Shown: piece after piece, positions 24,870 to 28,040 of the stretch
How positions within the stretch are numbered: the first letter of the stretch is position 1
Layout: every line of letters begins with the position of its first letter
DNA from: Pseudomonadota bacterium
GTDB taxonomy: Bacteria; CALINM01
Assembly: GCA_026415985.1 (NCBI GenBank)
Contig: JAOAGA010000008.1
Location: 1-36,189, forward strand
Direction: 5' to 3'
Length of the DNA stretch: 36,189 nucleotides
Notes under the pieces: generated by a model
Database searches by the model: none
Seen by the model: only the letters and a program-made list of their open reading frames with translations
Told to the model about the DNA's origin: nothing
Position numbers and translations under genes: made by a program

Positions 24870-25565
24870 ATGAATATACTAAAAAATATCAAGGGTTTTT
24901 ACGAGCTATCACTGATGGAATGGAAGGGAGTTGTATCTTCCATAATTTTTTTAGGAGGATGCAACTTCCGGTGTATCTATTGTCATAATTACGATATGGC
25001 TTTTAACCCTAAGGATATACCCTCTAAAGATTTAGACGATATTCTTAACAATCTTGATAATAGAAAAGGTTGGGTCGATGGTGTGGTAATATCGGGTGGT
25101 GAGCCAACCATTTATGGTGAAGAACTGATTGATTTTTTGCTGATATTCAAAAAAAGAGGTCTTAAAACCAAGATATATACAAATGGCTATAATTATGATG
25201 TAATAGAAAAGATTGTTGATAAAAAGATCGTTGATGAGATCAGCATGGATATAAAGCATATTCCGGGAAAGTATGAAGAGATAATCAAGGTTAAATTGCC
25301 AGAATTGGAAGACAGAATTCTTGCTTCAATAAATATACTTAAAAGGGCAAAGATAAATAAAGAGTTCAGATTAACGGCAGTTAAGGGAGTTCATTCCCTT
25401 GAAGACATAAAAAAGATTAGCGAACTTATCTCTCCGGAAAAAATCATCTTACAAAATGTTACAAATGATTGTGTCAGAGATGCCTACAAAGAGCTGATAA
25501 CTCCCTTTACTGATGAAGAAATTAAGTGTTTTGAAAAAAAGATTGAGGTGGATCATGGATATTGA
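24870..25565 (+). CDS. NrdG-like glycyl-radical activating radical SAM protein
   Basis: The 231-aa protein carries the radical SAM cluster motif CNFRCIYC (C31, C35, C38) after FLGG, and VVISGGEPTIYGEEL as the SAM-binding strand. This layout, with WKGVVSSIIFLGGCNFRC at the N-terminus, is typical of anaerobic ribonucleoside-triphosphate reductase activating proteins (the NrdG-like branch that also includes pyruvate formate-lyase-activase-like proteins). It would generate the glycyl radical on NrdD in the cytoplasm. No nrdD or other glycyl radical enzyme is in the window, so the target is uncertain. It overlaps gmhA by 11 nt, probably just by compact arrangement. Confidence 0.82.
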   Translation: MNILKNIKGFYELSLMEWKGVVSSIIFLGGCNFRCIYCHNYDMAFNPKDIPSKDLDDILNNLDNRKGWVDGVVISGGEPTIYGEELIDFLLIFKKRGLKTKIYTNGYNYDVIEKIVDKKIVDEISMDIKHIPGKYEEIIKVKLPELEDRILASINILKRAKINKEFRLTAVKGVHSLEDIKKISELISPEKIILQNVTNDCVRDAYKELITPFTDEEIKCFEKKIEVDHGY

Positions 25566-26127
25566 TGTAATCTTTGATGAAACCATTTTCCTTTTAGAAA
25601 AGGTAAGAGACAAGTATAAAGATAAGATAACGGAGGTTGCAGAAAAGATCTATGAATGCTTTAAGAGAGGCAATAAGCTTCTTGTATGTGGTAATGGCGG
25701 ATCCTCTGCAGACGCACAGCATATCTCTGCCGAGTTTGTAAACAGATTCAGGATTGAGAGAAAACCGCTTCCTGCCATTGCCCTGACAACGGATACCTCG
25801 ATAATAACAAGCATAGGCAATGATTATAGTTTTAATGAGATCTTTTCCAAGCAGGTTCTTGCCCTTGGAAAAGAGGGAGATGTTTTGTTAGGTATCTCTA
25901 CTTCAGGCAGATCAAAAAATGTTATAAATGCTTTAAAAACTGCCAGGGAGTTAGGCTTGACAACCATAGGGCTTTCGGGAGATTATGCAGATGAGATGGG
26001 AAAGCTATGCGATCACTACATTTATGTTCCTTCAAAGAATACTCCAAGGATACAGGAAGCCCACTTATTGATAGAACATACCATATGTGAGCTTATAGAT
26101 CAGTTCTGGAGAAAGGATAATTTGTAA
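25555..26127 (+). CDS. gmhA: Sedoheptulose-7-phosphate isomerase GmhA
   Basis: GmhA makes D-glycero-D-manno-heptose 7-phosphate, the first committed step toward the ADP-heptose of the lipopolysaccharide core, which supports an outer membrane. The SIS-fold signatures are LLVCGNGGSSADAQHISAEFVNRF, then ALTTDTSIITSIGNDYSFNEIFSKQV, GISTSGRSKNVINAL and the C-terminal EAHLLIEHTICELID. Starting at ATG 25555 (190 aa) gives the expected length; the ORF track's 25513 start would add 14 residues inside nrdG-like sequence. A GAGGTG ribosome site 4 nt upstream supports 25555. No other heptose genes are adjacent. Confidence 0.95.
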   Translation: MDIDVIFDETIFLLEKVRDKYKDKITEVAEKIYECFKRGNKLLVCGNGGSSADAQHISAEFVNRFRIERKPLPAIALTTDTSIITSIGNDYSFNEIFSKQVLALGKEGDVLLGISTSGRSKNVINALKTARELGLTTIGLSGDYADEMGKLCDHYIYVPSKNTPRIQEAHLLIEHTICELIDQFWRKDNL

Positions 26128-26183: not shown

Positions 26184-27122
26184 ATGTATGAGAAGATAGA
26201 TAACAGTAATATTAAGACCTATTCTTTGTATCAAAGAGAAAGCAAGGTTAATATAAAAGATTTTTCTAAGGTGGGAGATATTAAATCTCTTGATGACTTT
26301 GTCAGTTTAATACCCCATATTCTGGCAGGTAAAGAAATTAAAGAGATCGCCCGCAAAGTAGCTACAGTCAAAGAGGATAAAGGGAAAATTATATTAGGAA
26401 TGGGTGCCCATTTAATAAAGGTTGGACTGTCCCCGATTATAATAGCAATGATGAGGGAAGGAATAATAGATGGTATTGCCTTAAACGGTGCCTGTATGAT
26501 TCATGATGTTGAGATTGCAATGGTTGGACACACATCAGAAGATGTGGCAAAGGAGATTAAAGAAGGCACCTTTGGTATGGTAAAGGAAACAACCGAGTTC
26601 ATTATAAATGCGGTAAATAAGGGTAAAGAAAAGGGGTTAGGCGAGCTGATATGTGATGCACTGTTCAACTCAGATTTTCCCTATAAAGAATATAGTATTT
26701 TATCTAATGCCTGCAGATACAGGATACCGGTAACGATTCATCTTGCCATCGGTACTGATATTATTCATATGCATCCGTCTTTTGATGGTGCTACCTTTGG
26801 TTTGGCTACCCACAGGGATTTTCTCGTTTTTTCTAATCTGATAAAAGATCTTGAAGATGGAGTTTATATAAACATTGGCTCTGCTGTCATATTACCGGAG
26901 GTATTTTTAAAGGCTCTGTCTTTAGTAAGAAATTTAGGACACCCTCTGAAAAATATAACAACAATCAATATGGATTTTAAAGAGCATTACAGACCATTGA
27001 CTAATGTGGTAAAAAGACCAACCCTGGAGGGTGGCAGGGGTTATAATCTCATCGGACACCATGAGATACTGTTACCCCTTTTGTATTTTTTGATAAAATA
27101 TTACCAAGGCAAAAATTTTTAA
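26184..27122 (+). CDS. Deoxyhypusine-synthase-like NAD-fold protein, function unknown
   Basis: The 312-aa protein resembles the deoxyhypusine synthase family. The clearest part is the Rossmann-like core KIILGMGAHLIKVGLSPIIIAMMREGIIDGIALNGACMIHDVEIAMVGHTSEDV, comparable to the IFLxxxxNhhxxGLxxxhxxLhxxxxhDhhhxTxxxxxxD pattern. Later segments IGSAVILPEVFLKALSLVRN and the conserved FDGATFG are consistent with a homologous nucleotide-binding enzyme. The active-site lysine of true deoxyhypusine synthase was not found, and bacteria lack eIF5A, so another amine or NAD reaction is more likely. It has no signal peptide. It sits 36 nt before the PilZ-macro gene and 56 nt after gmhA. I am unsure of the family and give it no symbol. 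Confidence 0.5.
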   Translation: MYEKIDNSNIKTYSLYQRESKVNIKDFSKVGDIKSLDDFVSLIPHILAGKEIKEIARKVATVKEDKGKIILGMGAHLIKVGLSPIIIAMMREGIIDGIALNGACMIHDVEIAMVGHTSEDVAKEIKEGTFGMVKETTEFIINAVNKGKEKGLGELICDALFNSDFPYKEYSILSNACRYRIPVTIHLAIGTDIIHMHPSFDGATFGLATHRDFLVFSNLIKDLEDGVYINIGSAVILPEVFLKALSLVRNLGHPLKNITTINMDFKEHYRPLTNVVKRPTLEGGRGYNLIGHHEILLPLLYFLIKYYQGKNF

Positions 27123-27158
27123 TATATAAAAACTCAGAGGTTTTCAGGGGAAAGAAGA

Positions 27159-28040
27159 TTGATTGAAAGAAGAATAGATAGAAGAATACCTTTCAGAACT
27201 AAGGTAATCGTTGAGGCAGATGGTATAAGGAGAGAATTCTATACCATCAACATAAGCAGGGGTGGTGTATATATTGAAACGGATAACCCGCTTACAATAA
27301 ACAGCATTATATCTTTGGAGATTGCCATTGATGAAAACACCAAGATAGACTTGCAGGGCAAGGTTGTTTGGGTATCCTATCCCCATAGGGACAGTAACTA
27401 TCTTCCCGGGATGGGAGTTAAGTTTATGGATATATCGGCAGAAAAAATGGAGATTCTCGGGAATTTTATCGGTGATTATATCAAGAAAAATATGGAGATA
27501 ATAGATTACACGGAATACTCTCTTGATGACAGAATAGTTTTAACTGATGAGAATATCTATGAACAAAATGCGGAACTACTCATTGCCTTTGCCGGTTTGG
27601 GGATAAAGGAGCTTATTAACCATACAAAGTATGTCCTTGACAATGGCGGGGAACAGTTAAGGTTAGAATATGAAAAAAGAGGAGATCTTTTGCCCTTTGA
27701 GGGGTCCTTTCAGGTAACCGCTGGTGGAAATTTAATGGCGAAGTATGTGTTGTTTACCGCTATTCCGAATTTTTATGACAGCTATGGTGAGGAGCTATTA
27801 AGGATATCAATGCTGGAGGTTCTTAATAGGGCTTCTTTGCATTGCTTTAGCTCTGTTTTTTATCCTGCCTTTTCTCTTTTGGAAGCGGGTTTTCCCATAA
27901 ATGTTTCTGCTAAGGTTTTGCTTGGCACAACATATGGTTTTTTAAAGAAAGAGAAATTTCCGGTTAAGGTAATCTTTTTCTGTAACAATCAGGATTTAAT
28001 GGTCTTTCAAAAGATTAAAAGGGAGATTTTTGAGAGTTGA
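27159..28040 (+). CDS. PilZ domain fused to a divergent macro-like domain
   Basis: Residues 1-105 form a PilZ domain. The c-di-GMP motif RxxxR is present in ERRIDRRIPFR and the (D/N)xSxxG motif as NISRGG at residues 31-36, so ligand binding is likely retained. Residues 135-293 read as a macro (ADP-ribose type) domain: GSFQVTAGGNLMAKYVLFTAIP matches the family's xhTxGxxLxAKYVIHxVGP, then FYPAFSLLEAGFPINVSAKVLL corresponds to FPAIStGxxGFPxxxAA, ending with VIFFCNNQDLMVFQKI. The canonical N-terminal VNAAN binding stretch is replaced by AFAGLG, so ADP-ribose binding may be altered or lost. Translation starts at TTG 27159 behind AGGGG. It overlaps the next gene by 4 nt (TTGA). Cytoplasmic. Confidence 0.75.
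   Translation: MIERRIDRRIPFRTKVIVEADGIRREFYTINISRGGVYIETDNPLTINSIISLEIAIDENTKIDLQGKVVWVSYPHRDSNYLPGMGVKFMDISAEKMEILGNFIGDYIKKNMEIIDYTEYSLDDRIVLTDENIYEQNAELLIAFAGLGIKELINHTKYVLDNGGEQLRLEYEKRGDLLPFEGSFQVTAGGNLMAKYVLFTAIPNFYDSYGEELLRISMLEVLNRASLHCFSSVFYPAFSLLEAGFPINVSAKVLLGTTYGFLKKEKFPVKVIFFCNNQDLMVFQKIKREIFES

Follow-up and report, generated by a model that had tools for sequence, protein, structure and literature searches.

What does a deoxyhypusine synthase (DHS)-like protein do in a bacterium when its gene lies directly behind a gene for heptose synthesis? We know of no eIF5A in bacteria, and a preliminary description of this locus reasoned that the protein must have a role other than eIF5A modification, a view that our analysis bears out. 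It also proposed that the protein uses NAD and forms a c-di-GMP-controlled module with the product of the next gene, a PilZ-macro protein. The locus lies in a window of 36,189 nucleotides (the whole stretch of DNA analyzed here), which belongs to a genome of 1.57 Mb in 161 contigs that is 84% complete. Our genome set contains two relatives at the family level (91–92% complete), and the next nearest genomes are related at the domain level only. The features under study are:

25513..26127, + strand: gmhA, sedoheptulose-7-phosphate isomerase (TIGR00441, 205.6 bits, cut-off 209.45; NF010546, 219 bits)
26184..27122, + strand: gene for a GSU2086-family protein of DHS fold, 312 aa, ATG start (NF052581, 401 bits); proposed NAD-dependent ADP-heptose 6-epimerase
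27159..28040, + strand: gene for a protein with a PilZ domain and a degenerate macro domain, 293 aa, TTG start (PF07238, 59 bits; PF01661, 25.9 bits)

The 312-residue gene begins 56 nt after the end of gmhA, and a gap of 36 nt separates it from the PilZ-macro gene on the same strand; the adjacency of these two reading frames between gmhA and heme genes is thus as first described. On the 3' side of the PilZ-macro gene lie an NAD(P)-binding CysG-N-type gene, a ccsA-like gene, hemA, and hemC. Immediately 5' of gmhA, and overlapping its annotated start, is a gene for an NrdG2-type radical SAM activating enzyme (24870-25565 of the window; TIGR02495, 162 bits), which also precedes gmhA in the two relatives of the window genome. 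The true start of gmhA may be the ATG at 25555.

Family and fold of the 312-residue protein

The protein matched NCBIfam model NF052581 ("GSU2086 family protein") over its full length (401.4 bits against a cut-off of 250; residues 4-301), a family that is already named but recorded without a function. In a tree of this family, 42 rows, the window protein included, formed a canonical clade (support 100/98), and 19 rows were paralogous. The proposed relationship to DHS proved strong in structure but weak in sequence. The Pfam DHS model PF01916 scored 22.8 bits, under its 27-bit cut-off, and the ArgZ-like_C_2nd model scored 30.2 bits, slightly over its own; both matches covered ~70 N-terminal residues. 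TIGR00321 scored 19.9 bits against a cut-off of 304, and sequence matches in the PDB were to ArgZ/AgrE and the Methanococcus protein 3c2q, with marginal E-values. An AlphaFold2 model built from an alignment of 46 relatives had a pLDDT of 94.3 and a pTM of 0.91, and the best Foldseek matches to this model in the PDB were deoxyhypusine synthases, led by the Pyrococcus horikoshii enzyme (probability 1.00, TM ~0.6). Profile alignment of the family to two bacterial DHS-like proteins extended over nearly the whole length with 96–97% probability.

Having the DHS fold does not make the protein a DHS. During catalysis by the human enzyme, a hydride passes from the substrate to NAD and subsequently back again, and Lys329 carries the imine (PMC7226451). 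In the profile alignment with the two DHS-like sequences, the WGK segment that contains this catalytic lysine fell in a gap. We found no conserved lysine in residues 244-312, either among 46 diverse family sequences or in a comparison of both clades, and Lys243 was the sole lysine conserved across the two clades. The catalytic lysine sought in the preliminary description is thus not conserved, and because the WGK segment falls in a gap of this alignment and Lys243 is the only lysine that both clades keep, we conclude that the protein has the fold of DHS without being one. For the same reasons, and also because the equivalog cut-offs are missed by far and the genes nearby are those of heptose synthesis (see below), we regard as very improbable a role in polyamine or protein-lysine chemistry, like that of DHS or homospermidine synthase, or as an ornithine cyclodeaminase, in spite of the common fold and the weak profile matches that suggest one.

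An alignment of 46 diverse sequences contained 29 invariant columns, many with polar residues of catalytic type. His76, His107-Asp108, Glu110, Asp192, His197, Lys243, Asp264, and Arg270 were conserved in both the canonical and paralogous clades and, judged by conservation, are candidate contacts for a cofactor or sugar. The protein probably uses NAD, as originally suggested from its fold.

The PilZ-macro neighbor

Both domain matches in the neighboring protein are real (PilZ, 59 bits; partial Macro, 25.9 bits), and the residues of the c-di-GMP motif in its PilZ domain (R5/R9 and NISRGG) look intact. The macro domain, by contrast, has lost the NAAN, GGGV, and STG(I/V)(F/Y)G loops: in an alignment with MacroD-type relatives (from genomes G128 and G098), AFAGL stands in place of VNAAN and AFSLLEAGFP in place of AISTGIFGYP, and the GGGV loop is absent. 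An AlphaFold2 model of this protein, made from two sequences only, was poor (pLDDT 42) and was left out of the evidence.

In a protein search of 193 genomes, the full PilZ-macro architecture occurred only in the window genome and one family-level relative (G001); the other matches had PilZ alone or macro alone. A PilZ-macro gene stood beside the GSU2086-family gene in 1 of 67 informative loci, and this one locus (L027) is apparently the G001 contig itself. Genome G002, the other family-level relative of the window genome, carries gmhA, the DHS-like gene, and the CysG-N gene but has no PilZ-macro gene between them. Among the loci compared, the adjacency is thus peculiar to this lineage, an outcome that the preliminary description had named as counting against its proposal. 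With the pairing unseen outside one taxonomic family and the ADP-ribose motifs of the macro domain lost, same-strand adjacency in the window genome and one close relative is what speaks for an NAD/ADP-ribose module under c-di-GMP control, and we consider such a module the least probable of the readings weighed here. The PilZ-macro protein is a local neighbor that lies outside the function we propose for the 312-residue protein.

Heptose genes and the distribution of HldD

GmhA, HldE-type kinase/adenylyltransferase, and GmhB convert sedoheptulose-7-phosphate to ADP-D-glycero-D-manno-heptose. HldD is the classical ADP-heptose 6-epimerase and catalyzes the last step to the heptose sugar of the outer membrane, and lipopolysaccharide (LPS) synthesis draws on its product, ADP-L,D-heptose, as a core precursor. 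Several observations connect the GSU2086 family to this pathway.

First, heptose biosynthesis genes (gmhA, hldE, and gmhB), which the earlier account had treated as mere flank, are the conserved partners of the 312-residue protein. Contigs from 80 relatives, mainly metagenome-assembled Desulfobacterota/delta-proteobacteria and Nitrospirota, included 70 loci with sufficient 5' sequence, and in 56 of these gmhA preceded the family gene by no more than 700 nt. At least 25 genomes have an HldE kinase gene no farther than 2.5 kb from the family gene, and one genome (G026) has a family-hldE-gmhB run. The commonest genes downstream of the family gene were hemC and a cobA-hemD fusion. At ~30 loci (L029-L106), the gmhA/family pair has hemC and a cobA-hemD-type fusion on its 3' side, and proximity to tetrapyrrole genes is therefore itself conserved. 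Transposon sequencing of Geobacter sulfurreducens grown on electrodes gave scores of –3.1 for hldE (GSU2085), –3.2 for GSU2086, and –3.7 for gmhA (GSU2087), and the study described the GSU2086 product as hypothetical and its operon as one for sugar biosynthesis (PMC5585712). These scores are consistent with a single pathway, although operon polarity could lie behind part of their similarity, as the three genes are adjacent by locus number.

Second, the family and HldD almost never occur together. In a set of 60 genomes, the family scored above its cut-off in 19 and HldD (TIGR02197) was present in 17, with an overlap of one; HldE, GmhA, and GmhB mostly accompanied either protein, and 18 of the 19 family genomes had a Glyco_transf_9 (heptosyltransferase-type) protein. 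Replacement of the phosphatase GmhB was considered and ruled out, as GmhB occurs in 14 of 19 family genomes, much as in HldD genomes (11 of 17). In a set of 386 genomes, we detected the family in 133, HldD (E ≤ 1e-60) in 115, and HldE kinase in 291. HldE was present in 127 of the 133 family genomes and 111 of the 115 HldD genomes; the few family genomes in which HldE or GmhB went undetected possibly reflect incompleteness or divergence. The 291 HldE-positive genomes comprised 124 with the family only, 108 with HldD only, 3 with both, and 56 with neither. Co-occurrence in 3 genomes compares with an expected 48 (Fisher p = 2e-33, uncorrected for phylogeny), and after collapse to 259 taxonomic families the exclusion had p = 4e-11, a value that ignores deeper phylogeny. 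The window genome, in which HldD was not detected, is only 84% complete, but its two relatives (91–92% complete) lack HldD as well.

Third, the exceptions fall in one part of the family tree. In all three genomes with both proteins (G025, G082, and G294), the family copies belong to the paralogous clade, and no genome among the 386 combined HldD with a canonical-clade copy. The paralogue in G025 (L107:5959-7548) carries a fused adenylyltransferase domain of HldE-C type (TIGR02199, 97 bits, under the cut-off of 181.5), and those in G294 (L109:4504-8141) and G065 (L113:3530-6678) lie beside HldE-like and GmhA-like genes. Such surroundings suggest that the paralogous clade possibly serves a related, undescribed nucleotide-heptose pathway.

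Finally, one protein replaces the other at the same operon position. In four taxonomic families (f12, f100, f128, and f198), some genomes have the GSU2086-family protein and others have HldD. In f198, where G368 carries the family protein and G240, G386, and G387 carry HldD, the LPS-core operon is collinear with 52–82% identity, and its genes include, by NCBIfam name, those for HldE-C-type adenylyltransferase, HldE-N-type kinase, KdsB, PyrG, KdsA, and KdsD. A single slot, directly before the kinase gene, is unmatched, and it contains HldD (TIGR02197, 384 bits) in G240 and a GSU2086-family protein (436 bits) in G368. No in-place swap could be demonstrated in f12, f100, or f128, where the flanks are too diverged.

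A proposed ADP-heptose 6-epimerase and its known counterparts

From the fold, the family, the co-occurrence with heptose genes, the exclusion of HldD, and the single-gene replacement in the operon, we think it likely that the 312-residue protein takes the place of HldD as a non-homologous, NAD-dependent enzyme and inverts C-6 of ADP-heptose in the LPS inner-core pathway. That the protein binds NAD, which exact substrate it takes, and which residues catalyze the reaction are inferred from these observations. The C-6'' epimerase HldD depends on NAD+ (PMC10948575). In the mechanism that we envisage, bound NAD+ would take a hydride from C-6 of ADP-heptose, the keto intermediate would turn, and the hydride would go back to the opposite face to leave C-6 inverted. 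Enzymes of the DHS fold already carry out such oxidize-and-return chemistry with NAD, and tightly held NAD in one of them could support the same reaction as in HldD.

Two other explanations place the protein in the heptose pathway. In one, its substrate or product differs: a heptose phosphate would be epimerized before activation, or another stereoisomer or derivative of ADP-heptose would be made. The commonest neighbor of the family gene is gmhA rather than hldE, and paralogues are found in heptose-type clusters that have diverged and that contain genes resembling those for GmhA, HldE kinase, and adenylyltransferase, which implies that the family can serve other sugars. Moreover, the 56 HldE-positive genomes with neither protein indicate that the pathway can do without an epimerase, which leaves room for the family to make a different heptose. 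These 56 genomes may make D,D-heptose only, or they may have yet another epimerase. Occupation of the exact hldD slot in a collinear operon and the general exclusion of HldD nevertheless point most simply to an identical product, and heptosyltransferase-type genes are retained; a different substrate or product seems rather unlikely to us, although it is the least improbable of the alternatives. In the other explanation, the protein would be a non-catalytic regulator or scaffold of the pathway that is required only where HldD is absent. Its usual nearness to heptose genes would fit such a role, for which we found nothing direct, but the 29 invariant columns with their many polar residues of catalytic kind, together with the single-gene swap with an enzyme, make it highly doubtful.

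Replacement of HldD by the canonical clade remains the explanation we prefer, and we lean, with less assurance, toward a broader one in which this whole branch of the DHS fold acts on nucleotide heptoses. The canonical clade would then be a second, non-homologous ADP-heptose 6-epimerase, about as widespread among the sampled lineages as HldD, and members of the paralogous clade would act as epimerases on the sugar in a heptose pathway yet to be described.

Many Gram-negative lineages have the pathway as far as HldE but lack HldD, and a likely epimerase can now be assigned to them. The last heptose step probably has a second, unrelated route in many bacteria. The assignment also proposes a function for a family found in one third of the sampled genomes (133 of 386), and it would add sugar-nucleotide chemistry to a fold so far associated with polyamine, lysine, and ornithine chemistry. 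In the literature searched, outside of which lay subscription papers and preprints, we found no DHS-like protein with a part in heptose synthesis and no ADP-heptose epimerase other than HldD. The reaction is known and the fold is known; their pairing is new.

Among known systems, the C-terminal domain of ArgZ/AgrE and the TIGR00300 ornithine cyclodeaminase are closest in sequence to the N-terminal half of the 312-residue protein, which they resemble over only ~70 residues and with which they have an HDxE motif in common; its C-terminal half is distinct. Deoxyhypusine synthase shares its fold and aligns with it by sequence profile in the N-terminal half, but the profile alignment to two DHS-like sequences revealed no equivalent of Lys329 of the human enzyme. 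GSU2086 of G. sulfurreducens has gmhA and hldE as neighbors (GSU2085-2087), as does the family gene elsewhere, and its family, for which no function is recorded, is here proposed to replace HldD. HldD itself has the same pathway neighbors, occupies the same operon slot in f198, and is in near-perfect mutual exclusion with the family. The window protein has no TIGR02197 match or other sequence match to HldD, and the SDR/GalE fold of HldD differs from its DHS fold, yet HldD is NAD-dependent and the DHS fold binds NAD.
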